Source: Paracoccaceae bacterium (GTDB lineage Bacteria > Pseudomonadota > Alphaproteobacteria > Rhodobacterales > Rhodobacteraceae). From it: a stretch of 64,000 bases of DNA. Position 1 is the stretch's first letter, and every line of letters begins with the position of its first letter. The translations under genes and the position numbers were made by a program. The stretch spans positions 1-64,000 of the forward strand of contig JAAXIY010000033.1 in NCBI GenBank assembly GCA_012270125.1, in the 5' to 3' direction. The notes beneath the pieces were generated by a model, which was given only the letters and a program-made list of their open reading frames with translations, did not search any database and was not told the origin of the DNA. Of this stretch, positions 7,761 to 32,225 are shown one piece after another.

Positions 7761-7988
7761 TCAAGTTAAGCCTCGGAGCTTTTGTTGATTTTTAACTATC
7801 GCGTCAATGTCTTGAAAATTTAAGTTCGGATATTGGCGTGATATTTCATAAATTTTATCTTCATGAGATTTAGAGGACCAGGCTCCGGTTGAAGTGTCCG
7901 TCAGAAATTCTGTGAACATATCTACTGGGTTAAGCCAATCGTAAGGCCCCTCCAAATACATTTTATATATGTCTCGCTCCAAACTCAT
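7761..7988 (-). CDS. Small hypothetical protein, soluble
   Basis: I do not recognise this 75-residue protein. It has no membrane segment or signal peptide. It is acidic in its first two thirds with aromatic patches ('YLEGPYDWLNPVDMF'), and the C-terminal part 'YPNLNFQDIDAIVKNQQKLRG' may be a short helical domain. It starts with ATG 8 bases after the stop of the preceding small membrane-protein gene on the same strand, so the two are probably one operon. It converges on the aminotransferase gene with a 16-base gap. The normal amino-acid make-up and the tight pairing favour a real gene. Confidence 0.55.
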   Translation of the reverse strand: MSLERDIYKMYLEGPYDWLNPVDMFTEFLTDTSTGAWSSKSHEDKIYEISRQYPNLNFQDIDAIVKNQQKLRGLT

Positions 7989-7996
7989 TTTCTGTC

Positions 7997-8200
7997 TTAT
8001 GACTTTCGTGTTATTTTTCTAATTGCCCAACAAGAGTGAACCAGTGATAGAACTGAAAAAGCACCGCCAATGAAAATTATTTCAAAAATTGCTGGCCCAT
8101 TCAACTCAGAAAACAGGGCGGCATATGTTATTATAGATAATAAAAATATCGAAATAGCTATTCTGAATTTATACTCGCTAAGTTTTGTTTCATCATACAT
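7997..8200 (-). CDS. Small hypothetical membrane protein
   Basis: This unrecognised protein of 67 residues has a charged N-terminus 'MYDETKLSEYKFR', then two hydrophobic stretches (about residues 14-29 and 38-57) separated by 'SELNGPA', and ends 'RKITRKS', consistent with a two-helix inner-membrane protein whose basic tail is cytoplasmic. No good ribosome-binding site is seen before the ATG. It is the first gene of a two-gene minus-strand unit, and a PpsR-type site lies about 190 bases upstream, though the promoter overlapping that site points the other way. Confidence 0.5.
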   Translation of the reverse strand: MYDETKLSEYKFRIAISIFLLSIITYAALFSELNGPAIFEIIFIGGAFSVLSLVHSCWAIRKITRKS

Positions 8201-8383
8201 ATTTAAATCTTTTTTGTAAAAACTGGTCAGAAATAATTTTTGGCTGAATCAGATATAATTCAAAGCTAAGTAAAATCAAAAAGTGAAAAGTTTTGCTAAT
8301 CAAAAAAATGATCTGATAAAATTTCATAGCATAGATGCTTGCATTTAAAGACAAAATTCCGTCACGGAAATTTAAATTAAAAG

Positions 8384-8401
8384 TGTAAAAAATAATTGAC
8401 A
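8384..8401 (+). promoter_or_regulatory. PpsR/CrtJ-type site overlapping a sigma-70-like promoter
   Basis: TGT (8384-8386), 12 bases, ACA (8399-8401), with G before ACA as in the TGTC-N10-GACA consensus. Its right half is TTGACA (8396-8401), which with TTAAAT at 8419-8424 and a 17-base spacer makes a good promoter reading right. The predicted first transcribed base is near 8431. No protein gene starts close downstream. Confidence 0.6.
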
Positions 8402-8430
8402 CTTTTTTAAAATTTTACTTAAATAGAGTT

Positions 8431-8580
8431 GTCGAGCCAATGCCTGTGAACAAGGATGACTTCGTTTAGGGGAAAACTCGACGCGGAATTTGTCTATTGT
8501 TTATGTTCATCACCCTGATCTTTAAAAATAGATAAGTTTCAAACTGTTGGTGGGCGCTCATACTTGAAGTATGGGCGCTT
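8431..8580 (+). ncRNA. Candidate PpsR-controlled small RNA
   Basis: The 518 bases between 8200 and 8719 hold no convincing protein gene. A promoter with a PpsR-type site predicts a transcript beginning at about 8431. Its first bases GTCGAG (8431-8436) pair with CTCGAC (8477-8482) to close a domain, and a strong stem-loop follows: GCGCTCATAC (8554-8563) with GTATGGGCGC (8569-8578), nine pairs plus one G-U-like mismatch. The downstream tract is pyrimidine-rich but has no clean T-run, so the 3' end is a guess. I recognise no known RNA family. A small RNA made together with the photosynthesis genes has a functional precedent in Rhodobacter PcrZ; no sequence relation is claimed. Confidence 0.4.
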
Positions 8581-8623
8581 CCATCTTTCATACTTTCTAA
8601 TCTTAATGGTAATGATTTTGTTT

Positions 8624-8643
8624 ATCGGCTATTTTTAGCCGAT
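8624..8643. terminator. Perfect stem-loop ATCGGCTA / TAGCCGAT
   Basis: ATCGGCTA (8624-8631) and TAGCCGAT (8636-8643) pair perfectly around TTTT. It lies between the candidate small RNA and the 45-residue ORF. No T-run follows on the plus strand, so termination is possible but not proven; it could also be a protein-binding palindrome. Confidence 0.45.
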
Positions 8644-8718
8644 TATGTGACAGGAAAAGTTGACACTATGAGATTTGATTTTAGTATCTAATACTTACTA
8701 ATAAATTTGGGGGTTATA

Positions 8719-8856
8719 ATGGAATTGTTCAGTTTTTCGGTGTCTACGCCATTTTGGATTTGGCTGCTATTTGCTTTAGCTACAGCCTATTATTACGACA
8801 TCATGAAAAAGCGTATAAATCGATTAGAGCAAAGGCTTTTAGATCTGGATGGATAG
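8719..8856 (+). CDS. 45-residue single-pass membrane protein
   Basis: ATG 8719 follows GGGGG (8709-8713) at good spacing, and the frame runs 45 codons to TAG. The protein begins with 'MELFSFSVSTPFWIWLLF' and has one hydrophobic helix (about residues 10-26) with four aromatic residues, followed by a charged, helix-prone tail 'DIMKKRINRLEQRLLDLDG' with leucine/isoleucine spacing that could form a short coiled coil. A TTGACA box at 8660-8665 may belong to its promoter. It converges on crtC with an 18-base gap. No family is recognised; small single-pass proteins near pigment genes can be assembly factors, but this is only a suggestion. Confidence 0.6.
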   Translation: MELFSFSVSTPFWIWLLFALATAYYYDIMKKRINRLEQRLLDLDG

Positions 8857-8874: not shown

Positions 8875-9930
8875 CTAATATTTATGTTTCCAAAATTTTC
8901 TACGTGGGACGCGCACGGCTAGCATAAACATTAGTAATGGATTTCTAAATCGTCGTAGATCCAAAGCTTCAAAAACGCCAATTGTTTTAATTCCTTTGAT
9001 GCGTGTTGAAACAGTTGCTCGACTATAAAACGGCGCATCTAAAAGACTTTTCTCTTGTCTCGGCTTATACTCTTTGTCGCACCTTGTTTCTCTCCTTATG
9101 CCCCAGAGTGATCGGGAAAACCTTTTATTTTTCGGGGCATCAGTTATATCTGAGGGTATTCCATCACTTTCGAAATGAAATCCAAATTGATACTGCTCGT
9201 TATTACGTAATTCCAAATCATAAAAGCAGGAAGTGCCTGTTTTTAGTGGAAACCGACCCCAAGTCCAGTAATCAAAATCTTGCTCTAAAGCTCTAGTTCC
9301 AAAATTTGCGTCAAAATATCCATGACCCGTCCACTGCCACTCTGGTTTATTTAGATCGACATCTATTTCCGCTGTAGGGGCAAAGGGGCGCCAGACATGT
9401 GTTCCTTCTTTCGTCAAAGGTAGTTCAACGTCCGTTATGCCAGTAGGCTTGAGCGTAATTGTACCTTTTAGTTTAGAAATAAAGGGTAGGCTGCTTATCT
9501 CATCGATTTCTATAACCAATTTTTTTTCTGTTTGATCCCAAGTCAAAGAGGATGGTCCAATTGTAAGTTTATGAGCCTCCTGAATAAGAGCGCTATCCCC
9601 TCTATCAGTCATCGCAAACCGGCCTTTTTTTCCATATGTTGCGATATTTAAGCAAACATTATTTTGAGGCTTTTTTCGTCCAGACCACTTATACCAGGGT
9701 GAGAAAACTGATCCAATGAACGCAATTATTGAAACAGCTTGCCCAGTATTTGGTTCGACCCCGTCAATATACCACCATGCATATCCGTTTGGGGGAACTT
9801 CTAGATTAAAATTTGGCTCTTTATCATCTCCTCTACCGCTAGCAGGGCGGAGAGCGTTGCCATTGGAACCCCAGCCCCAGGATGCACTCCTCCTCCCACT
9901 AGAAATAAGTTGTTTATCGAAGTCACGCAT
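8875..9930 (-). CDS. crtC: Hydroxyneurosporene synthase (acyclic carotenoid 1,2-hydratase)
   Basis: CrtC adds water across the 1,2 double bond of neurosporene or its derivatives in spheroidene synthesis. The core is recognised from 'GYAWWYIDGVEPNTGQ', 'IIAFIGSVFSPWYKWSGRKKP', 'HVWRPFAPTAEIDVDL' and 'GTRALEQDFDYWTWGRF'. The gene follows crtD on the minus strand as in Rhodobacter. The start is a problem: in this frame no ATG, GTG or TTG lies between the crtD stop (9801) and the conserved domain. The nearest ATG is at 9930, inside crtD, and gives 351 residues with a 130-base overlap; the frame is open back to 10104. The coordinates used here take that ATG. Confidence 0.85.
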   Translation of the reverse strand: MRDFDKQLISSGRRSASWGWGSNGNALRPASGRGDDKEPNFNLEVPPNGYAWWYIDGVEPNTGQAVSIIAFIGSVFSPWYKWSGRKKPQNNVCLNIATYGKKGRFAMTDRGDSALIQEAHKLTIGPSSLTWDQTEKKLVIEIDEISSLPFISKLKGTITLKPTGITDVELPLTKEGTHVWRPFAPTAEIDVDLNKPEWQWTGHGYFDANFGTRALEQDFDYWTWGRFPLKTGTSCFYDLELRNNEQYQFGFHFESDGIPSDITDAPKNKRFSRSLWGIRRETRCDKEYKPRQEKSLLDAPFYSRATVSTRIKGIKTIGVFEALDLRRFRNPLLMFMLAVRVPRRKFWKHKY

Positions 9931-11306
9931 TTGGGGCGTTGAAAAGTTGCCATCATTCCGTGCGGGCTCTGCCCGTAAAGGGAACCTTCTGTAGCTGGAA
10001 ATAAGTTGTTGAAATCTTTTGGCGTCGTAAGATTCTTTCTTTCCAATTCTACTTGAAAATTGAGACCAAAATTTTTGAAACGTTCCAAAGTTACTGATTT
10101 GCATATCTCAAAATCCTCTTTATTTGGTTTTCGTTTTGAAAGTGGTGGTGCATTTAGTATGATTTCAAAACGCTCAGTCTTCTGTTTTTCGTTTGATACA
10201 TCGCGGTCTTGGGCGCAGATATAAAGCGTTGGATCTTTTGGAATTTTCCCCTTTTGAATTTCGTAAAACTCAGAGTTGACTTCATCAGAAAAGAATACGT
10301 TATGATGGACTAAATTTTTATTTACGTGCTTTGACTCAAAGCCCCAGACATTAGCTGATAGACTTCTTGGCGTGTTCCTTGTCTTTTTTGTAACTTTACG
10401 CAATCCTTCTCCAAGTAACCCTAAAGCTAAGGCTCTAGGGTCACCGTTGAAAATTATTGCATCAGCCTCGTAATTGGTCCCATCATCAAGGCAGACCTTA
10501 TTAACCAAGTGCTTTGATTGTTGTATTTCGATAACCCTATGACCGTAGATAAATTCTACTCCTCGATCCTCCGCAAGCCTTTCAATCGCTTTGGCAACGG
10601 AGCTAATACCGCCTTTCACAGTCCAAACCCCTTTTGCTTCTGCCTGCCAGACTAGCGCCATTAGCGCTGGGGAATTGAGAGGGGAGCCACCAACATATGT
10701 GGCATACCTACCAAATAACTGTTGTAACTTAGGTTCCGAAAATTTGCTTTTTAGATATTTATCTAAAGTTCTGAAAGGGAAAAGGGCTGGTATTACCGTT
10801 GGCGTTTTACATATTTCTTTTAGAATTTCAATTGGAGCTGGCGATACAGTTTTCATTACGGGTTTTTCAAAACAAGTGAACATTTTTTCAGTTGTATGAA
10901 AAAACTCCATATATTGATTGGCGGCATTTGAGCCAAATACATTTCTTATTTCATCAAATGTATTATTTTTATTGGTAAAAAGGTCAAACTCTGTGCCGTC
11001 TGACCACCAATGCCTGGCCAGGATATTTTGTTCTTTTAATTCAAGATGATCAAAAATATCTTCTCCAACCTCTCTGAAGAGATTTTGAAAAATGGGTAGC
11101 ATCGTCAATACTGTTGGGCCTATGTTGATTGGGCCAGAATTAGCTTCAAGAGTTCTTATTTTTCCACCAGGGTATTCTGAGCGTTCAAATACTTTTACTT
11201 CAAAACCCTCGTGGGCCAATTTTAAAGCTGATACGAGTCCCCCAATTCCAGCGCCAACAACTGCAATTTTTTTACGTTTTCGCATTATGGGTACGTCTTT
11301 GGCCAT
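9801..11306 (-). CDS. crtD: Methoxyneurosporene dehydrogenase (C-3,4 desaturase)
   Basis: This 501-residue FAD-dependent desaturase of the CrtI/CrtD family introduces the 3,4 double bond in spheroidene synthesis. The N-terminal dinucleotide motif 'IAVVGAGIGGLVSALKLAHEG' and the C-terminal 'NNLFLVGGGVHPGAGVPMATLSA' are family signatures. I call CrtD rather than CrtI because it is paired with crtC and because a separate crtI is at 52555. ATG 11306 or the in-frame ATG 11285 can be the start; neither has a clear ribosome-binding site. A PpsR-type site at 11335-11352 lies just upstream and is shared with the divergent crtE. Confidence 0.9.
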   Translation of the reverse strand: MAKDVPIMRKRKKIAVVGAGIGGLVSALKLAHEGFEVKVFERSEYPGGKIRTLEANSGPINIGPTVLTMLPIFQNLFREVGEDIFDHLELKEQNILARHWWSDGTEFDLFTNKNNTFDEIRNVFGSNAANQYMEFFHTTEKMFTCFEKPVMKTVSPAPIEILKEICKTPTVIPALFPFRTLDKYLKSKFSEPKLQQLFGRYATYVGGSPLNSPALMALVWQAEAKGVWTVKGGISSVAKAIERLAEDRGVEFIYGHRVIEIQQSKHLVNKVCLDDGTNYEADAIIFNGDPRALALGLLGEGLRKVTKKTRNTPRSLSANVWGFESKHVNKNLVHHNVFFSDEVNSEFYEIQKGKIPKDPTLYICAQDRDVSNEKQKTERFEIILNAPPLSKRKPNKEDFEICKSVTLERFKNFGLNFQVELERKNLTTPKDFNNLFPATEGSLYGQSPHGMMATFQRPKCVTSINNLFLVGGGVHPGAGVPMATLSALLAVEEMIKSQILI

Positions 11307-11334
11307 AATGAATTGTTGACTCTAAGTTAATATA

Positions 11335-11352
11335 TGTCCAGAATAATTTACA
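11335..11352. promoter_or_regulatory. PpsR/CrtJ-type site between crtD and crtE
   Basis: TGT (11335-11337), 12 bases, ACA (11350-11352), in the intergenic space between the divergent crtCD and crtEF units. The near-match at 11357-11374 lies 22 bases on, suggesting paired binding that represses both directions. Confidence 0.65.
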
Positions 11353-11356
11353 GTTA

Positions 11357-11374
11357 TGTAAATATTTATTGTCA
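11357..11374. promoter_or_regulatory. Near-match PpsR-type site before crtE
   Basis: TGT (11357-11359), 12 bases, TCA (11372-11374): one base off the ACA half. It is adjacent to the full site at 11335 and overlaps the start of the crtE frame. The same TGT-N12-TCA variant appears before bchC. Confidence 0.4.
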
Positions 11375-16983: not shown

Positions 16984-18455
16984 TGTTGATACAAGATCAT
17001 GATCGTGCTGGCGGATATTGGGGCGCTGTTTACGCTTTTTGTGCTGTTAAAGGTTTGCAAGTCGTGATTGATGGGCCGGTTGGTTGCGAAAATTTACCAG
17101 TGACCTCGGTTTTGCATTACACGGACGGGTTGCCTCCCCATGAATTGCCTATTGTTGTAACTGGCTTGGGCGAAGAAGAGCTGGGAAGAGATGGCACTGA
17201 AGGCGCCATGAAAAGAGCTTGGAAAACTTTAGATCCAGCGCTGCCGGCCGTTGTTGTGACAGGATCAATTGCAGAAATGATTGGTGGTGGCGTTACACCT
17301 CAAGGTACATCAATTCAGAGATTTCTGCCCAGAACAATCGATGAAGATCAGTGGCAGTCTGCTGATAGGGCAATGACCTGGATCTTTACAGAATTTGGAA
17401 TGACTAAAGGCCGAATGCCTCCCGAAAAGAAAAGACCTGAGGGTTCTAAACCTCGCGTAAATATACTGGGTCCTATGTATGGGACCTTCAATATGCCAAG
17501 TGATCTTGCGGAAATACGCAGACTAATTGAAGGTATAGGAGCTGAGGTCAATATGGTTATGCCGCTAGGATCACATCTGGCAGAGATGAGAAACCTAGTT
17601 AATGCTGATGCCAATGTCTGTATGTATAGAGAATTTGGAAGAGGCTTGTGTGAGGTTCTTGGAAAACCGTATCTACAAGCTCCAATTGGGATGGATAGTA
17701 CCACAAAATTTTTACGAAAATTAGGGGAACTTCTAGAATTAGATCCAGAGCCTTTTATAGAAAAGGAAAAACACTCAACTTTAAAACCCATTTGGGATCT
17801 TTGGCGTTCAGTTACGCAGGATTTTTTTGCTACAGCTGAATTTGCTATAGTTGCCAATGAAACCTATTCCCGTGGAATACGAAATTATCTTGAAGCTGAC
17901 TTTGGTTTTCCATGTGCTTTTGCGGTAGGTCGCATTGCTGGTGCTAAGACCGATAATGATGAAGTCAGAAAACTTTTTAGTGAAAAAAGACCCTTAATTG
18001 TTTTTGGCTCAATAAATGAAAAAATCTACCTTTCTGAGCTGAAAGGGGGACATGGACCACAGCCTGCATTCATTCCTGCTTCTTTCCCGGGTGCTGCTAT
18101 TCGTCGATCTACAGGAACTCCTTTTATGGGATATGCTGGAGCAACGTATGTTCTTCAAGAACTATGCAACGGCCTTTTTGATGCACTATTTCATATTTTA
18201 CCTTTGGCAACTGAAATGGATGCGGCTGAAGCTACGCCAATTAATTTGAAAAAAGATTTACCGTGGGATCCAGAGGCTCAGAGCGAACTGGATAGAATTG
18301 TGGCAACCCATCCTATTTTAACAAGAATTTCGGCAGCTAAACGACTTCGAGACCAGGCAGAGGCACAAACTTTAAAAGTTGGTGGCGAGCGGGTTGATCT
18401 AGAAATCGTATCTGCACTTAGAAATCAAAACTCATCTGAAGCAAATGGAGGTTAG
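16983..18455 (+). CDS. bchZ: Chlorophyllide a reductase subunit Z
   Basis: BchZ is the NifK-like partner of BchY. The 490-residue sequence starts '[26 protein letters not shown]' and includes '[28 protein letters not shown]', characteristic of the subunit, and ends in the DUF/PCP_red-like helical tail '[25 protein letters not shown]'. The substrate tetrapyrrole binds at the BchYZ interface. The start overlaps the bchY stop. The end of bchZ holds the ribosome-binding site of pufQ, and in related bacteria also the puf promoter; I could not identify that promoter with confidence here. Confidence 0.95.
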
Positions 18456-18459
18456 TGTT

Positions 18460-18681
18460 ATGCCAGAAATCTTACAAACACAGCAACGCCATAGAAAAAA
18501 AATTAACTCTCGCTGGGAATACCTTGTGATATTTGGGTTGATTTTCTTAGCTGCAAGTCCGTTTTCAATGATCCATTGGATCGTTGATATGTATAGGAGG
18601 AAAAGTATTTTCGTTGATGGTCCTGTGACCCGAGCATGGCTCGAGGCGCATAGGATCACACCGGTAATTTTCTCGGTCTGA
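18460..18681 (+). CDS. pufQ: PufQ, photosynthetic pigment assembly protein
   Basis: PufQ is a small single-span membrane protein thought to help deliver bacteriochlorophyll intermediates for complex formation. ATG 18460 follows GGAGG (18447-18451) and gives 73 residues; an earlier in-frame ATG at 18445 lies inside bchZ. A basic N-terminus 'RHRKKINSRWEY' precedes one helix 'LVIFGLIFLAASPFSMIHWIV', and the tail 'RAWLEAHRITPVIFSV' is typical. It is the first gene of pufQBALMC. Its stop is part of a 7-pair stem-loop, TTCTCGG (18670-18676) with CCGAGAA (18688-18694). Confidence 0.9.
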   Translation: MPEILQTQQRHRKKINSRWEYLVIFGLIFLAASPFSMIHWIVDMYRRKSIFVDGPVTRAWLEAHRITPVIFSV

Positions 18682-18694
18682 ATCAGCCCGAGAA
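18670..18694 (+). terminator. Stem-loop spanning the pufQ stop codon
   Basis: TTCTCGG (18670-18676) pairs perfectly with CCGAGAA (18688-18694). In related puf operons, structure between pufQ and pufB sets the 5' end of the stable pufBA mRNA. Termination here is not supported by a T-run, so a processing or stabilising role is more likely. Confidence 0.5.
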
Positions 18695-18716
18695 ATAAGA
18701 GCTGTTCTGCTTATTG

Positions 18717-18772
18717 CAGTTCAGAACCCCGAAGAGAATGAGTCTCGGAGGGACCCGGCCATAGGGGAACTG
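18717..18772 (+). other. GC-rich structured leader of pufB with an 8-codon ORF (pufK-like)
   Basis: Between pufQ and pufB the sequence turns GC-rich within an AT-rich genome. CAGTTC (18717-18722) pairs with GAACTG (18767-18772), and CCC (18727-18729) with GGG (18764-18766) across an AGAA bulge. A mini-ORF, MSLGGTRP, runs from ATG 18738 to TAG 18764. It resembles in position the rare-codon pufK of Rhodobacter sphaeroides; whether it is translated is unknown. Confidence 0.45.
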
Positions 18773-18803
18773 TGGCGCCATGAAACATTCTGGAGGATAT
18801 TTC

Positions 18804-18959
18804 ATGTCAAGCAAAAATGACCTGTCTTTTACAGGTTTAACTGACGAACAGGCGCAAGAGTTGCATTCTGTTTATTTGAGTGGGATGTGGCTATTCGTAG
18901 CTGCTTGCATCCTTGCTCATGTAGCAACGTACATCTACCGCCCTTGGTTCGCATTTTAG
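18804..18959 (+). CDS. pufB: Light-harvesting 1 beta polypeptide
   Basis: PufB is the beta chain of the core antenna that rings the reaction centre. ATG 18804 follows GGAGG at 18792-18796 and gives 51 residues. The soluble N-terminus '[21 protein letters not shown]' leads into one helix '[20 protein letters not shown]'; the His in 'LAHVATY' (residue 39) is the magnesium ligand of B875 bacteriochlorophyll, and 'YRPWF' at the end holds the Trp that bonds to the pigment. pufA follows after 13 bases. Both genes precede an RNA stem-loop that should raise their level over pufLM. Confidence 0.95.
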
Positions 18960-18972
18960 GGAGGATTGATTT

Positions 18973-19134
18973 ATGGCTAAATTCTATAAAATCTGGCTCG
19001 TTTTCGATCCGCGCCGTGTGTTTGTAGCACAAGGTGTTTTCCTATTCTTGCTAGCAGCAATGATACATCTTGTTCTGCTAAGCACGGAGCATTTCAATTG
19101 GTTTGAGTCCGCAGCTGCAGCAGCTGGCGGCTAA
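18973..19134 (+). CDS. pufA: Light-harvesting 1 alpha polypeptide
   Basis: PufA is the alpha chain of the LH1 antenna. ATG 18973 has GGGAGG upstream (18959-18964); 53 residues follow. The typical start '[21 protein letters not shown]' precedes the single helix '[23 protein letters not shown]', in which the His of 'MIHLVLL' (residue 32) binds bacteriochlorophyll and 'FNWF' carries the Trp near the pigment. The tail is alanine-rich and short. Each alpha pairs with a beta chain and two pigments. A strong stem-loop comes 38 bases after the stop. Confidence 0.95.
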
Positions 19135-19172
19135 CCCTTTGTTTTGCAAAAGGTGAACTAAAAGAATTAAGT

Positions 19173-19203
19173 CACGGGCATTTGGCTTCGCTACTTGCCC
19201 GTG
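19173..19203 (+). terminator. Intercistronic stem-loop between pufA and pufL
   Basis: CACGGGCA (19173-19180) pairs perfectly with TGCCCGTG (19196-19203). In Rhodobacter the equivalent hairpin blocks 3' exonucleases and gives excess pufBA mRNA over pufLM, setting the LH1-to-reaction-centre ratio. No T-run follows, consistent with stabilisation and not termination. Confidence 0.75.
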
Positions 19204-19268
19204 GCAAACAGATTATAACTATCGGTTCTCGTTTTAAATGAACGTACCGAAATTCGCGGAGAGAAGAG

Positions 19269-20108
19269 ATGGCATTGCTCAGCTTCGAAAGAAAATATCG
19301 TGTCCGAGGTGGCACTTTAATAGGCGGTGACTTGTTCGACTTTTGGGTCGGACCGTTTTACGTTGGATTTTTTGGCGTAACGACTGCTTTTTTTGCCCTT
19401 TTGGGCACAATCCTTATTTTTTGGGGAGCAAGTCAGCAGGGAACTTTTAATCCCTGGTTGATCAACATAGCTCCTCCTGATTTAAGTTATGGGTTATCAA
19501 TGGCTCCCTTACTTGAAGGGGGACTTTGGCAAATTATCACCATATGTGCGACTTGCGCTTTTGTAAGTTGGGCTTTGAGAGAGGTTGAGATTTGTAGAAA
19601 GTTAGGCATGGGATATCATGTTCCTTTTGCTTTTGCTTTTGCTATCCTGGCCTATGTAACTTTGGTTATCTTTAGACCGCTCCTAATGGGAGCATGGGGA
19701 CATGGCTTTCCTTATGGGATCTTTAGTCATTTGGATTGGGTGAGTAACACAGGTTACGCATACCTCCATTTTCACTATAATCCAGCTCATATGCTTGCTG
19801 TGACATTATTTTTCACAACAACACTCGCTCTGGCTTTGCATGGTGCGCTTGTTTTGAGTGCAGCTAATCCTGAAGAAGGAGAAGAAGCTATGGGCCCTGA
19901 TAACGAAGATACATTTTTCAGAGACTTTATAGGTTACTCGATTGGAACTTTAGGAATTCATAGACTTGGGTTTCTATTGGCAATAAATGCTGTTTTCTTC
20001 TCAGCGGTTTGTATCATTATTTCCGGACCAGTTTGGACCAAAGGATGGCCTGAATGGTGGAATTGGTGGTTAGAACTTCCAATCTGGCCAAGTCAAATAG
20101 GTATGTAA
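19269..20108 (+). CDS. pufL: Photosynthetic reaction centre L subunit
   Basis: PufL is one of the two core proteins that hold the special-pair bacteriochlorophylls, bacteriopheophytins and quinones. The 279 residues begin '[30 protein letters not shown]', the standard L terminus, and form five membrane helices. '[31 protein letters not shown]' contains the histidines for accessory and special-pair pigments, and a later His in '[14 protein letters not shown]' is an iron ligand. GGAGAGAAGAG lies before the ATG. pufM starts 3 bases after its stop. Confidence 0.97.
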
Positions 20109-20110
20109 TC

Positions 20111-21097
20111 ATGATTGAGTATCAAAATATATTTACCCAAGTGCAGGTGCGTGGCCCTGCGGAAATGGGAATGGACAATGAAAATAACATGTCCTCAGAG
20201 CGCGCAGGCAATCCTCGTTTTTCAAATTTGATAGGTTGGCTAGGTAACGCTCAGCTTGGCCCAGTATATCTGGGATGGACAGGTGTTATATCTTTGGCGA
20301 CAGGCTTACTATGGTTCAACATAGTAGGATTAAATATGCTGGCTCAAGTAGGGTGGTCTATTCCAGAGTTCATAAGACAATTCTTTTGGCTCGCTCTAGA
20401 ACCTCCTGGTCCAGAATGGGGACTGCGTATGCCTCCGCTTAATGACGGTGGTTGGTATATTATAGCTTCTTTCTTTTTATTAGTGTCGGTATCAACTTGG
20501 TGGTTGCGAACATATCTTTTGGCGCAGCAGCACAAGATGGGGAAACACGTTGCTTGGGCGTTTGCCGCAGCAATTTGGCTTTTCTTGGTGCTTGGACTTT
20601 TCCGCCCCTTTCTTATGGGTAGTTGGTCAGAAGCCGTACCATATGGTATTTTCCCTCACTTAGATTGGACGACAGCTTATTCTATTAGATACGGAAACCT
20701 TTACTACAACCCATTCCATGCATTATCCATTGTGTTCTTATATGGATCGGTACTTTTGTTTGCTATGCATGGTGGTACCATTCTCGCTACTACGCGATTT
20801 GGTGGCGATCGTGAACTCGAACAGATATACGATCGAGGAACGGCCTCAGAGCGTGCAGCTCTGTTTTGGCGTTGGACAATGGGCTTCAATGCAACAATGG
20901 AAGGTATCCACAGGTGGGCTTGGTGGTTCGCCGTATTGTGTCCAATAACTGGTGGAATAGGTATTTTGTTAACAGGGACAGTAGTTGATAACTGGTTCAT
21001 CTGGGCTCAAGAACACCATTTTGCGCCGATGTATGATGGCTCCTACGGTTATGAAAACTTTGGCTCATATGAAGCTTTCATAGGTAAGGAGGACTAA
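20111..21097 (+). CDS. pufM: Photosynthetic reaction centre M subunit
   Basis: PufM pairs with PufL in the reaction centre. ATG 20111 gives the conserved start '[25 protein letters not shown]' and 328 residues; an earlier in-frame start at 20054 would run into pufL and is rejected. Five helices are visible, with '[26 protein letters not shown]' and '[10 protein letters not shown]' holding pigment-binding histidines and '[20 protein letters not shown]' carrying the late His iron ligand and quinone-site residues. The C-terminus '[17 protein letters not shown]' overlaps nothing; AAGGAGG for pufC lies in its last codons. Confidence 0.97.
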
Positions 21098-21099
21098 AA

Positions 21100-22206
21100 A
21101 TGTTACCTAAATGGTTTAATTTATGGAATAGAGAAAATCCAACAAACGTTTTTGGTCCAGCAATTCTGGTTGGGGTATTGGGCGGTGCAGTCTCATTGGC
21201 AATATTGATAGTTGTCTTGGGCCAACCCTATGCAACAGATAGTTTGCAGACCGGTCCTAGAGGAACTGGTATGTCGGTTACAGAATTTGAGAGCGACTTA
21301 AACACTCCAGATCCGGATATCGCACTTCTTATGGAAGATGAGCCTTATAAACCAGACGGTTCAGAGGACTTAGCAAAAGACATTTATAAAAATGTTCAAG
21401 TGCTTGGTAATTTGACTGAAGATAACTTCAACCGACTTATGGCCGCAATGACAAATTGGGTTTCTCCTGAACAAGGGTGCGCCTACTGCCATGGAGAAGG
21501 TGACCTAGAAACTTATGGTGAGGATAACCTGTACACTAAGGTTGTAGCTAGAAAAATGATCCAAATGACCCAGAATATAAATGAAAACTGGGATGGTCAT
21601 GTTAATGCCAATAAGCAAGTAGGCGTCACTTGTATGACATGTCATAGGGGGCAAAATGTCCCCAGTGAGATCTGGTTTGATATAACCCCTGTGAACGAAG
21701 CCACAGCGGGGTGGTCTGCAATTCAAAACCGTGTCACTCCGCTTAGCCAGTATACGTCTCTACCTTCTGATGCATTACAAGCTTATCTGGTGGATTACGA
21801 GACGATTGGGGTTCATGATTTGGAATCTCGAGTGGCCAATGAGCCTGGTGACCCACTAATCCAGCAAGCAGAACGTACCTACTCTCTAATGAATTATTTT
21901 TCAAACTCATTGGGGAAAAATTGTGTTCTCTGCCACAATTCAAGGGCGTTTTACGATACTGAGCAAGTAACGCCCCAGTGGGGTACTGCTTCGTTGGGTA
22001 TTGGAATGGTTCAGGAGATGAATAATGACTACCTTATCCCACTTGGTGATGTTTATCCTGAGAGCCGGTTAGGTCCTAAGCACGGAGACGCTCCGAAGGC
22101 TGCATGTAAGACTTGTCACAAAGGTTATCAGCAACCTCTGCAAGGGGCTAATGTCATACAGTACTGGCCAGAACTGGCTACTACCGGAGATCCTGTTTAT
22201 GAGTGA
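21100..22206 (+). CDS. pufC: Tetraheme reaction-centre cytochrome c subunit
   Basis: PufC is the tetraheme cytochrome that re-reduces the photo-oxidised special pair. Four CxxCH motifs are visible: 'CAYCH', 'CMTCH', 'CVLCH' and 'CKTCH'. The product is 368 residues. The N-terminus 'NVFGPAILVGVLGGAVSLAILIVVLG' is one uncleaved-looking membrane helix, and no Cys occurs before the first heme motif, so a lipoprotein anchor is excluded. pufC occupies the place where Rhodobacter capsulatus and sphaeroides have pufX. A terminator-like stem-loop follows at 22248-22276. Confidence 0.95.
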   Translation: MLPKWFNLWNRENPTNVFGPAILVGVLGGAVSLAILIVVLGQPYATDSLQTGPRGTGMSVTEFESDLNTPDPDIALLMEDEPYKPDGSEDLAKDIYKNVQVLGNLTEDNFNRLMAAMTNWVSPEQGCAYCHGEGDLETYGEDNLYTKVVARKMIQMTQNINENWDGHVNANKQVGVTCMTCHRGQNVPSEIWFDITPVNEATAGWSAIQNRVTPLSQYTSLPSDALQAYLVDYETIGVHDLESRVANEPGDPLIQQAERTYSLMNYFSNSLGKNCVLCHNSRAFYDTEQVTPQWGTASLGIGMVQEMNNDYLIPLGDVYPESRLGPKHGDAPKAACKTCHKGYQQPLQGANVIQYWPELATTGDPVYE

Positions 22207-22247
22207 TCTCATTCAAGAAAAATGCTTTATGTAAAATAAAGTGAAAG

Positions 22248-22280
22248 CGCCTCGCATTGTTTAACAGTGCGGGGCGTTTA
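22248..22280 (+). terminator. Terminator-like stem-loop after pufC
   Basis: CGCCTCGCA (22248-22256) pairs with TGCGGGGCG (22268-22276), 8 of 9 plus a G-T, with an inner CA/TG extension, then TTTA. The stem includes the frame upstream of dxs, which supports the later dxs start at 22296. Confidence 0.6.
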
Positions 22281-28995: not shown

Positions 28996-29900
28996 TATTG
29001 TCCCACCGCCTGTGATATCCCGATAGAGCAAACCATCATTCCACTTACGAACATCAAAACCCCTGTTGAATTATACCAAGGAGCATATCTTTCTGGATCG
29101 CTTAATAATCTCCGCATTGCTATGAATTGCCCAAATACAAGTAATAAGACAAAAGCAGAAAATAGAGGAAGTCCCCAAGTGTAGAGTAAAGCTACAACGA
29201 AAATTTGAGGTGCAGCCATTACATAACAAGCAATTTTGGCCGCTCTGTCTGGTCCCAATTGAACAGGGAGTGAATTTATTCCAAGCGCTTTATCACCTTT
29301 CAACGCTTTAAAGTCATTTAGAGTCATAATGCCATGTGCACCAATCGCATAAGCAATCGCGACTAAGATTATTTTTGTATCAGGAAATGCTTGCAGCATA
29401 ACTGCAGCACCAGTGAACCAGGGAATGCCTTCATAACAAAGACCAACTAAACCAGGGCCCCAAATGCCAGATTTTTTTAATCGAATTGGTTCTATTGAAT
29501 AGATCCATGCAGCCAGTGCGGCAAAGATCGTTGCAATAAACCCCCAAATGCCGAGCTGCCAACCTAGGACTAATGCAAGTAATGTCATTCCTAATGCTAT
29601 TTTAAGCCCCCAATTACCTGGCATTCTACCGGAAGGGATTGGTCTGTTAGGTTCATTAATTGTGTCTACATGTCTATCACACCAATCATTTGCTGCTTGG
29701 CTCATTCCACAAACAACAGGGCCAGCGACTATTATTCCGAGTATTAGTAAGTCCAAATTTTCTGCGATAGATGCGCCGGATGATATAACTCCACAGGCAT
29801 AAGCCCACATTGGGGGAAACCAAGTTATTGGTTTAAGAAGTTCAAGAACAACTAAGAAATTAGGATAAGTTGTTGGCTGTTTACTATTCGTGACACTCAT
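28995..29900 (-). CDS. bchG: Bacteriochlorophyll synthase (esterifying enzyme)
   Basis: BchG attaches geranylgeranyl diphosphate to bacteriochlorophyllide a. It is a UbiA-family prenyltransferase of 301 residues with about eight helices. The first aspartate motif is 'QAANDWCDRHVDTINEPNRPIPSGRMPG', the second 'LNDFKALKGDKALGINSLPVQLG'. The start ATG (29898-29900) sits at the centre of a palindrome and beside a PpsR-type site (29902-29919) with no ribosome-binding site, so the transcript may be leaderless. It heads bchG-carrier-bchP-idi-bciA and lies after ppsR. Confidence 0.94.
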   Translation of the reverse strand: MSVTNSKQPTTYPNFLVVLELLKPITWFPPMWAYACGVISSGASIAENLDLLILGIIVAGPVVCGMSQAANDWCDRHVDTINEPNRPIPSGRMPGNWGLKIALGMTLLALVLGWQLGIWGFIATIFAALAAWIYSIEPIRLKKSGIWGPGLVGLCYEGIPWFTGAAVMLQAFPDTKIILVAIAYAIGAHGIMTLNDFKALKGDKALGINSLPVQLGPDRAAKIACYVMAAPQIFVVALLYTWGLPLFSAFVLLLVFGQFIAMRRLLSDPERYAPWYNSTGVLMFVSGMMVCSIGISQAVGQ

Positions 29901-30000: not shown

Positions 30001-30016
30001 ATAAACCGGAGTTTAT
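30001..30016 (-). terminator. Rho-independent terminator of ppsR with a UNCG tetraloop
   Basis: On the minus strand ATAAAC-TCCG-GTTTAT is a six-pair stem closed by cUCCGg, a very stable tetraloop of the UNCG class, followed by TTATTTTTAA. The ppsR stop codon lies in the stem. It should end the ppaA-ppsR transcript and separate it from bchG. Confidence 0.65.
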
Positions 30017-31425
30017 ATCTCAAACTTGCTTAGTTTTACATACAGGCTCTGCCTTGAAAGCCCTAAAAGATCAGCAGCGGCAGCTCTATTATTATTTGTA
30101 ATTTCTAATGCTGCCTCTATGCATATTTTTTCAATAACATCAGTTGTGTCAGTTACGATTTCCTTGAGTGTTGCGCTCCCAACTAACTCTTTTGCTGCTA
30201 TTTCATCTTGCTTATTATTTTCTTTGTAATTGATACTTGATGTACCATCCCTGCTTTGTGATGCAGAAACTTCCCTAACTATAAAGGCTACTAAGGCATT
30301 GGCATCAGATTTATTTCTAGAAACAGATGCCTCTATCTCTATCTTTGTACCAAAAACACTTTTTAGATGTGTGGAATATGTTTTAACAGCCCCCGATTTC
30401 ATCACGTTTTCTAACATAATTGCTAAATCAATTTCGCCTCTTCCAAGATAGTCTGAAAGATTTTTGGCTATTACTTCACTTTTATGACTAGAATTTGTTA
30501 GGTCCAAAAACCGATCATTTATGTACTGAATAGATCCATTTATGTCTGTAAATATTATAGCATCTGGGCTGCTGTGGAAAGTGGCTAATAGATTTTCCGT
30601 AAGTTCCTTTTCTCCTTGCTTCCTTATCGTTTTGGGGAAAAACTTACAGATAAGAATTTGCTGCCCTGCGGCTCTGTAGACATCAGGAGTTACTGAGAAA
30701 ATCACCTCTCCATTTGCGGTGTCAAGTTCCTCGCTCAAATCATAATTTCCATGAGCTGCAATTGAAATCTTCTCAACAAAGCCTTTTCTTTCAGATTTAT
30801 TCGAAAGAAATGACTGAATCGAAACTTTTTCATTGCTTTCGGAGCCTTTGTAGAACATTTCTTGGAAAGCAGGGTTGGAAAAAATGATTTCTCCCGACTT
30901 AGCGTTAACAAAAGCTAAAGCATCGCTAGTTTTTGCCAAAAGAACATTAAAGTGCGCTTCTAACTCTCTTTTTTCTTCAATACTTTCTTCGACGGCTATT
31001 TGCGCTTTCACGAACCTTTGTTGATTTTCCGAGATCGACTGAAGATCTCTGCCCAACAAAATTATTTTGCCGTCTTTGCCAAGCCGGTGGATATTGTATT
31101 TTATTGGAAAACGCCATTCTGCATTATCTATGTGGTTTAGTTCTAGACCGTACAAAACCGTTTCATCACTTTCTAGTTTAGCAATCGCTGCCTCTAATTT
31201 TGGGATACTCTCCACTGTAAGAAACTTTGTTAGTTTTCGACCGACCCAGTGGTTTAAATCGCCATACGATTTCTCAGCTTTATTGACTAGAATAGATGAT
31301 ATTTTTGTTTCGGCATCGATCAAAAAAGCAATATCTGAGGAAGTCGCTAACACCCCTCCAAGATACTCTGGTTCTATCATTGGAATGGATCCAAATTCCC
31401 AAGTGGTATCTGGCTTTTGATTCAT
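30013..31425 (-). CDS. ppsR: Photosynthesis gene repressor PpsR/CrtJ
   Basis: PpsR is a redox- and light-responsive repressor of pigment and antenna genes that binds TGT-N12-ACA sites. The 470-residue protein has tandem PAS domains (about residues 20-125, 155-265 and 285-395) and a C-terminal FIS-type helix-turn-helix 'AAAADLLGLSRQSLYVKLSKFEI'. Two cysteines that match in place the redox cysteines of Rhodobacter PpsR are Cys260 in 'QILICKFF' and Cys435 in 'IEKICIEAAL'. The start overlaps the ppaA stop, and eight full sites of its presumed operator occur in this window. Confidence 0.94.
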   Translation of the reverse strand: MNQKPDTTWEFGSIPMIEPEYLGGVLATSSDIAFLIDAETKISSILVNKAEKSYGDLNHWVGRKLTKFLTVESIPKLEAAIAKLESDETVLYGLELNHIDNAEWRFPIKYNIHRLGKDGKIILLGRDLQSISENQQRFVKAQIAVEESIEEKRELEAHFNVLLAKTSDALAFVNAKSGEIIFSNPAFQEMFYKGSESNEKVSIQSFLSNKSERKGFVEKISIAAHGNYDLSEELDTANGEVIFSVTPDVYRAAGQQILICKFFPKTIRKQGEKELTENLLATFHSSPDAIIFTDINGSIQYINDRFLDLTNSSHKSEVIAKNLSDYLGRGEIDLAIMLENVMKSGAVKTYSTHLKSVFGTKIEIEASVSRNKSDANALVAFIVREVSASQSRDGTSSINYKENNKQDEIAAKELVGSATLKEIVTDTTDVIEKICIEAALEITNNNRAAAADLLGLSRQSLYVKLSKFEI

Positions 31426-32225
31426 CCTTGCGCTGCCTCATTTAGTCTATTAATTTCTCTTTTTGCTTTATTTTCAACGTATTCTGTTACAGCGTCAAGT
31501 GAGTTTGTTACTAAGTTAAATCCACTTAAATCCACACCCTGTGAAATCTTATCAATATTACTTCCACCTAAGAAAATGGAAACCTTTTCACTACATTGTT
31601 TTCTAATTTCTTTAACACAATCGGCTGTTTCTTTAACGCTAAGATAGCTCGCGCTTGAAAAAAATATTCCGTCGTAGTCGTTAGCTCTTTGGAGTTCACA
31701 AATTTCCGATGAACTCGCATTTAGTTTTATTTTTAATGAATGCCCTTTTCGTCTCAGCATGTCACCCAATACAAGAGCTCCTAAAGTATGTTGTTCGCTT
31801 TGATGGACGCAAATAAGGTACCTTCTTCCATTGTCTAAACCAACGGTTGGCTTTGTTTTTTGAGCTATTTCTTTCAGCAAAACTTGTAAATTTGATGATC
31901 CGATAGTTACCTCGGAAAAACTTAAACTATCGTTTACCCAAGATTCTCCAAGCCTTACAGCTGCTATTGGAATACAATGGTCTATAATTGTCTCTCTCTT
32001 AAAGCCTAATTCTAATAGCTCTTGCAGAGCAGCTGAATAGTTAAAGTTCTTGGATAGACAATGCCTAACTAAAAGCATACCAGCATGCTCAACCCACTCT
32101 GGGTTAGCTGGCCGTAAAAGATGTCCTTTGCTAGCGTTGAGCGCAGAGTAAACCAGGCTCGAAATATGATCTATATCCGAACTTTGTGAAAATCTATTAT
32201 TTTTCTCATTCACGCTTGCCTCCAA
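31422..32225 (-). CDS. ppaA: AerR/PpaA-type cobalamin-binding antirepressor
   Basis: PpaA (AerR in R. capsulatus) binds vitamin B12 and modulates PpsR/CrtJ activity in response to light. The 267-residue protein has a helical N-terminal half and a C-terminal B12-type Rossmann domain: 'LICVHQSEQHTLGALVLGDMLRRKGHSLKIKL' holds the His and Gly pattern used by such domains, followed by 'YDGIFFSSASYLSVKE' and 'VSIFLGGSNI'. No SCHIC heme loop could be identified. It is co-transcribed with ppsR (ATGA overlap) and is divergent from bchF, with the PpsR-type sites in the gap. Confidence 0.88.
   Translation of the reverse strand: MEASVNEKNNRFSQSSDIDHISSLVYSALNASKGHLLRPANPEWVEHAGMLLVRHCLSKNFNYSAALQELLELGFKRETIIDHCIPIAAVRLGESWVNDSLSFSEVTIGSSNLQVLLKEIAQKTKPTVGLDNGRRYLICVHQSEQHTLGALVLGDMLRRKGHSLKIKLNASSSEICELQRANDYDGIFFSSASYLSVKETADCVKEIRKQCSEKVSIFLGGSNIDKISQGVDLSGFNLVTNSLDAVTEYVENKAKREINRLNEAAQG

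Follow-up and report, generated by a model that had tools for sequence, protein, structure and literature searches.

What looks like a small RNA gene adjoins the carotenoid genes of a marine light-harvesting bacterium

Does the intergenic stretch beside crtC, in which a promoter is followed by no protein gene, hold a gene for a regulatory RNA? An earlier note on this DNA had proposed a small RNA co-regulated with photosynthesis genes. Our analysis supports that interpretation, and on balance we favour a lineage-specific, PpsR-repressed, stand-alone small non-coding RNA gene of about 150 bases, probably acting by base-pairing.

The window, that is the whole stretch of 64 kb of contig analysed here, contains a photosynthesis gene cluster, running from crtC (about 8.9 kb) to crtB (55.1 kb), and comes from a genome of low GC content (40%; 2.16 Mb in 85 contigs, 96% complete). 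Genes were named by profile tests where possible and otherwise from reading of the open reading frames (ORFs). The candidate element sits between two small minus-strand ORFs, the nearer of which starts at 8200, and a 45-residue plus-strand ORF. The minus-strand pair (7761-8200; 75 and 67 codons) has no Pfam match and keeps the same order in 5 of 5 relatives.

Operator and promoter

The TGT-N12-ACA palindrome overlapping a TTGACA box was found at the coordinates that the earlier note had given, as was TTAAAT at a spacing of 17 bases from that box. The regulatory sites and the genes concerned are as follows.

8353-8373, strand not assigned: palindrome AAAATTCCGTCACGGAAATTT with core TTCCGTNNCGGAA (8357-8369), perhaps a second regulator site, with its centre at -68 from the predicted start
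8384-8401, plus strand: PpsR/CrtJ-type operator TGT-N12-ACA, TGTAAAAAATAATTGACA, at -47 to -30 from the predicted start
8396-8401, plus strand: -35 box TTGACA, within the operator, read from the sequence and invariant in six genomes
8419-8424, plus strand: -10 box TTAAAT (TTAAAT, TTATAT or TTTAAT in other genomes), a weak consensus match
8875-10104, minus strand: crtC, carotenoid 1,2-hydratase (NF045922, 452.2 bits, cut-off 400)
30013-31425, minus strand: ppsR, the expected repressor (TIGR02040, 331.6 bits, cut-off 275.4)
31422-32225, minus strand: aerR/ppaA-like gene, a weak candidate target, its name taken from its position beside ppsR (only a weak CarH match, far below cut-off)

The bare TGT-N12-ACA pattern is common in the window, with 19 matches against 14.5 expected; outside the gene table 9 are found against 1.2 expected, and none of 500 shuffles reaches 9. 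A matrix was trained on eight further photosynthesis-promoter sites (crtD/crtE, bchC, bchG, bchF, crtA/crtI) in both orientations, the 8384 site being excluded; one of the training sites, at 29878, lies within coding sequence and scores only 12.3 bits. Out of sample, the 8384 site scores 27.5 bits and ranks second in the 64 kb behind the bchC site (29.1 bits, a training site), and the maximum on 20 shuffled windows is 16.4 bits. Judged by these scores, the operator is more than chance, and the identification of the site as PpsR-type in the earlier note agrees with them. The operator of the candidate RNA scores 25.0-27.6 bits in five relatives. In the sister clade the matrix gives 29 hits above 14 bits at five loci, and every one falls at the bchC, crtD/crtE or crtI-like promoters, crtE and the neighbour of crtI being named there by position.

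As expected of a member of the PpsR/CrtJ regulon, the palindrome stands at the promoter in 6 of 6 genomes and the genome carries a ppsR gene. No paired site for cooperative binding appears near 8384 among the matrix's top 25, the slot from -21 to -4 reading AAATTTTACTTAAATAGA, and such a single operator weakens the case for membership without overturning it. The -10 box agrees with the consensus at 4 of 6 bases, and the promoter scan does not list the 8396-8424 promoter.

The palindrome at 8353-8373 is absent from the earlier note. Its core TTCCGTNNCGGAA lies 13-15 bases upstream of the operator in 6 of 6 clade A genomes; the genus loci scanned, which partly overlap and total 432 kb, contain one further match (TTCCGCAGCGGAA, L174). 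Elsewhere in the cluster, the divergent crtD/crtE intergenic region (11307-11368) is 91.9% invariant in four genomes and carries PpsR-type sites at 11335 and 11357.

Predicted RNA and its conservation

The domain closed by GTCGAG/CTCGAC does begin at 8431, as the earlier note had it, both on reading and in the predicted fold, which has three hairpins.

8431-8482, plus strand: hairpin I, closed by GTCGAG (8431-8436) and CTCGAC (8477-8482), with the 5' end of the RNA placed at 8431
8485-8540, plus strand: hairpin II, inner loop GTTTATGTTCATCACCCTGATCTTTAAA (8499-8526), invariant in 6 of 6 genomes
8541-8552, plus strand: linker AAACTGTTGGTG, invariant in six genomes and unpaired when 8431-8580 is folded to minimum energy
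8553-8579, plus strand: hairpin III, a possible 3' end with no U-run after it
8485-8563, plus strand: run of 79 bases invariant in six genomes, the longest in a four-genome alignment (the next is 26)

The 8431-8580 fold has an energy of -53 kcal/mol and a z of -5.54, with 0 of 200 shuffles equally good; a repeat with 100 shuffles gave a z of -4.59. Across the six genomes the plus-strand z ranges from -4.18 to -4.75. The minus strand has the higher energy in all six, yet it too has a low z (-2.90 to -4.39), and at 8540-8689 it folds better than the plus strand (z -5.83 versus -4.53). As a single sequence L003 adopts a different fold. When the 3' end is extended, only 8541-8548 of the linker stays mostly unpaired. 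Two invariant stretches are exposed, namely the linker and hairpin II's inner loop.

The strong stem-loop that the earlier note placed at 8554-8578 is real as a hairpin, but the U-run of an intrinsic terminator does not follow it and the terminator scan does not list it. Since the U-run is missing, the 3' end is uncertain.

The earlier note had also named conserved stems with compensatory changes, next to crtC in relatives, as support. The stems are conserved, though in one clade of one genus and not across Rhodobacteraceae, and of the 48 pairs of the consensus structure only one is changed in both partners, in two of the six genomes. That covariation is nearly nil is largely due to the 79 bases that never vary. 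The pair 8431-8482 of hairpin I is G-C in four genomes and A-U in two, and one stem pair of hairpin III exchanges U-G and U-A.

Conservation was measured in an alignment of G000, G001, G010 and G015 (13,092 columns, about 13 kb). The proportion of invariant columns is 95.8% at 8485-8580, 72% in hairpin I and 76.5% in the operator and promoter; it is 26% in the flank at 8201-8350, 39% at 8581-8655 and 64-76% in the coding genes, m67 excepted at 51%. By this measure the predicted RNA core varies less than the protein genes around it. In windows of 96 columns, 92 columns are invariant for the RNA and 86 for the runner-up, in crtC/crtD, a smaller lead than the length of the run suggests. At the invariance of bchX, and with columns treated as independent, about 6e-6 runs of 79 bases are expected per alignment.

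Could a peptide explain this conservation? A plus-strand frame (MFITLIFKNR) and a minus-strand frame (MSAHQQFETYLFLK...) each stay uninterrupted in the six genomes. Even so, we judge a micro-protein or leader peptide highly improbable, as the invariant run holds no synonymous change, no ribosome-binding site is visible and the plus-strand ORF of 22 residues is interrupted in the window by an indel of one base and lacks its ATG in L006. The earlier note had named a conserved ORF reading through the region as a ground for giving up the small RNA; no ORF there shows a coding pattern that accounts for the conservation. The further claim that no credible ORF follows for almost 300 bases holds as well, the next conserved one being sORF45, which has signals of its own.

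8648-8665, plus strand: weaker PpsR-type site before sORF45, 15.5 bits
8660-8687, plus strand: promoter-like TTGACA-N16-TAGTAT of sORF45, from the promoter scan
8719-8856, plus strand: sORF45, a 45-residue putative one-helix membrane micro-protein (MELFSFSVSTPFWIWLL...), 88.9-93.3% identical in five relatives

The PpsR-type site before sORF45 scores 21.7 bits in G015, 12.4 in G008 and 12.1 in G005, and is not listed above 12 bits in G010 and G001. sORF45 has no Pfam or NCBIfam match; a paralogue, 77% identical, follows an amtB-like ORF at G000:C54:124071 (L195 2072-2209).

As sORF45 is next downstream in 6 of 6 genomes, and as hairpin III without a U-run may permit read-through, transcription could run from 8431 through 8856, the hairpins then being a structured 5' leader that controls translation or termination of sORF45 in cis. 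Bases past hairpin III pair with the sORF45 start region in five of the six genome folds (judged by eye; L002 is the exception). We consider such a leader unlikely, since the promoter-like TTGACA of sORF45 is conserved in six genomes and accompanied by a PpsR-type site of varying strength, and since the 8581-8655 stretch is only 39% invariant. The stand-alone RNA remains the reading that we prefer: the region is a non-coding, structured and conserved unit with its own promoter, the latter recognised by eye and by conservation, as is expected of a small regulatory RNA.

Instead of base-pairing, such an RNA might bind a protein and serve as a sponge or decoy. Some of the 79 invariant bases are paired and would be free to vary if only pairing mattered; protein binding would account for the constancy of both arms of hairpin II. 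The loop AACAAGGATGA resembles what we take to be a CsrA site, but CsrA lies over the cut-off in 0 of the 16 genus genomes (G012 has one sub-threshold match, with a stop), on which ground a CsrA sponge was rejected. No other protein is suggested, and in the window there are 0 Rfam matches at gathering score, the best below threshold being frnS (22.7 bits versus 60). A protein-binding RNA is thus a rather improbable alternative to the base-pairing one. The window contains no tRNA or tmRNA.

Distribution among relatives

A crtC was found in six same-clade genomes, and all six have the locus. A DNA search matched query bases 1-209 (3-209 in one case) in five other genomes of the genus at 89-92% identity, and the operator, the -35 box and the RNA are kept in all six locus-bearing genomes, in line with the conservation that the earlier note had called for. 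Model R1 was built from these six; over the 16 genus genomes it returns the same six at E <1e-46, by construction, its matches being mostly its own training sequences, and beyond them only weak reverse-strand matches and G004 at E 0.9.

Each genome matched by R1 has one full-length match, and plasmid and phage collections have none to the element. These counts bear on a reading in which there is no RNA gene at all, and what we see is a conserved DNA element or a chance mixture of motifs. The weak -10 box is in its favour, but the operator, the promoter, the three hairpins and the invariance fall in one place and stop together, and taken with the single copies this makes the absence of an RNA gene very hard to believe.

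crtC was found in 11 of the 16 genus genomes. All six whose crtC is at least 77% identical to that of the window carry the RNA, with the same synteny as far as the contigs reach. The RNA is absent from the five sister-clade genomes with a crtC 61-65% identical (G003, G006, G011, G012, G013), of which only G011 is at least 90% complete, and a search of these five for sORF45 gave nothing beyond a 21-residue match at E 0.8. As four of the five have pufLM, the RNA is not needed for phototrophy as such. By aerR, G002 and G004 group with the RNA-bearing clade (64-66% versus 29-33%); neither crtC nor a convincing RNA was found in these two drafts. G007, G009 and G014 could be placed in neither clade. 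The RNA thus appears to have arisen in, or been kept by, one clade of one genus.

R1 was also run, with stricter filters and E up to 0.1, over 394 genomes of the family that represent roughly one per genus, and found only G000 and G010. Besides the own genome, a DNA search of 390 genomes of the order gave four partial matches, all weak (E 5.5e-4 to 6e-3); by reading, one lies in an ABC-transporter coding frame. An exact 18-mer genome scan, which reaches only relatives keeping an exact 18-mer and would miss distant ones without it, yielded 69 stretches; six match R1 strongly, namely the five relatives and L133, whose sequence is nearly that of the window. Two stretches with the 18-mer came from viral contigs and gave no model match at E up to 1.

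The motif CTGATCTTTAAAAATA...GTGGGC recalls what is presumably the boxA of the E. coli rrn leader, and a partial match lies ahead of a terminator-like hairpin in G268. The reading as an rRNA-leader boxA was rejected because matches in the rrn leaders of G000, G003 and G007 spanned no more than 9-20 bases (best E 0.18) and because an E of 5.5e-4 per genome is near chance over 390 genomes.

The arrangement of puf varies among these genomes. pufLMC (18455-22257) lies between bchZ and dxs in the window and not at that place in G001, G015 and G010; pufLM is on other contigs in G001 and G010 and was not found in G015 (59% complete), so puf seems to have moved. G010 has two pufLM sets (C44 = L198, C76 = L197) with a PufX-like match after each. 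No PufX match was obtained at E up to 0.001 in the window's genome.

Proposed action and known systems

We infer transcription of the RNA, its repression by PpsR and its action on target mRNAs by base-pairing, and propose the following course. PpsR would occupy the operator, which covers the -35 box, and keep transcription off; relief of PpsR would let the RNA be produced alongside the bch and crt mRNAs and fold into its three hairpins. The invariant inner loop and linker could then pair with mRNAs, and this pairing would tune the synthesis of pigment or photosystem, as PcrZ and PcrX do in Rhodobacter sphaeroides. Of the 16 genus genomes, 11 have an Hfq gene; in the genome of the window, 96% complete, the search gave none.

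Targets were predicted among 50 genes for three segments of the RNA, using the mean duplex energy over one to four genomes, and this set gave no secure partner. PcrZ has bchN and puc2A as targets; here bchN is not among the best 8 of the 50 genes for any of the three segments. With the inner loop, aerR (z -3.9, three genomes) and tctC (z -3.6, two genomes) stood out. Over six leaders the aerR pairing was equalled by 2 of 1500 shuffles, which is not significant after 150 tests, and the window's own duplex is the weakest (-18.3). On co-folding, G002 pairs the inner loop there, and G000, G001, G004 and G015 pair elsewhere. We do not claim aerR as a target and treat it as a weak lead only. Tentatively, and with some doubt, we suggest that this could be the first small-RNA family of an aerobic anoxygenic phototroph built into the PpsR regulon from within the gene cluster, that its 79 bases might form a multi-target or protein-binding hub, and that one of its arms may affect aerR, the antirepressor of PpsR, so that a feedback loop is completed.

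How does the candidate compare with systems already described? PcrZ of R. sphaeroides is presented in the cited passages as a trans-acting small RNA of 136 bases with its own promoter (PMC6238624, PMC8307010), and both PcrZ and PcrX as regulated by PrrA, by AppA, the antirepressor of PpsR, and by FnrL (PMC8307010). The candidate is similar in length, in having its own promoter and in its co-regulation with photosynthesis, here predicted from sequence alone. The earlier note had held it to be separate from PcrZ, and the two indeed show no resemblance in sequence or place. The 5' end given for PcrZ in the cited passage (2,565,820; PMC6238624) was read in G082, which we took to be R. sphaeroides 2.4.1, a pufX match being among the grounds. 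The PcrZ stretch shares with the candidate only chance-like matches of 7-8 bases, and R1, with filters off, scores no more than 9 bits (E 0.047) in the PcrZ region, on the opposite strand. The distance from PcrZ to pufX is about 585 kb; PcrZ is outside the gene cluster, with a DEAD-box helicase ORF before it and a cytochrome b561-like ORF after it (by eye), whereas the candidate lies next to crtC and, unlike PcrZ, has a canonical PpsR palindrome overlapping its -35 box.

PcrX (PMC8307010) and asPcrL of R. sphaeroides are likewise small RNAs that modulate photosynthesis genes. As the available descriptions have it, PcrX derives from the puf 3' UTR and asPcrL is antisense, whereas the candidate has an intergenic promoter of its own. 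The closest likeness in operator geometry that we can cite is the CrtJ/PpsR-controlled bchC promoter of R. capsulatus, where, in the section cited, the upper TGT-N12-ACA also spans -47 to -30 over the -35 box (PMC5362033). That promoter serves a protein gene and has a second palindrome at -21 to -4, which the candidate promoter lacks; one operator at the candidate thus stands against two at bchC and others.

A search of open-licence PMC text, a body that leaves most subscription journals outside its scope, found no small RNA of the gene cluster of an aerobic anoxygenic phototroph. A 2025 review, in the part cited, considers small RNA regulators likely to be involved in these bacteria and current work to be limited (PMC12654162). 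In related estuarine Rhodobacterales, phototrophy transcripts are described as highly abundant at night, MED-G52 being barely analysable in the data set described there (PMC11837527). Small RNAs co-regulated with photosynthesis are thus already known, and the candidate would be an added member without detectable similarity to PcrZ; its PpsR-type operator, predicted start and clear clade distribution make it a concrete test object for small RNAs in aerobic anoxygenic phototrophs.
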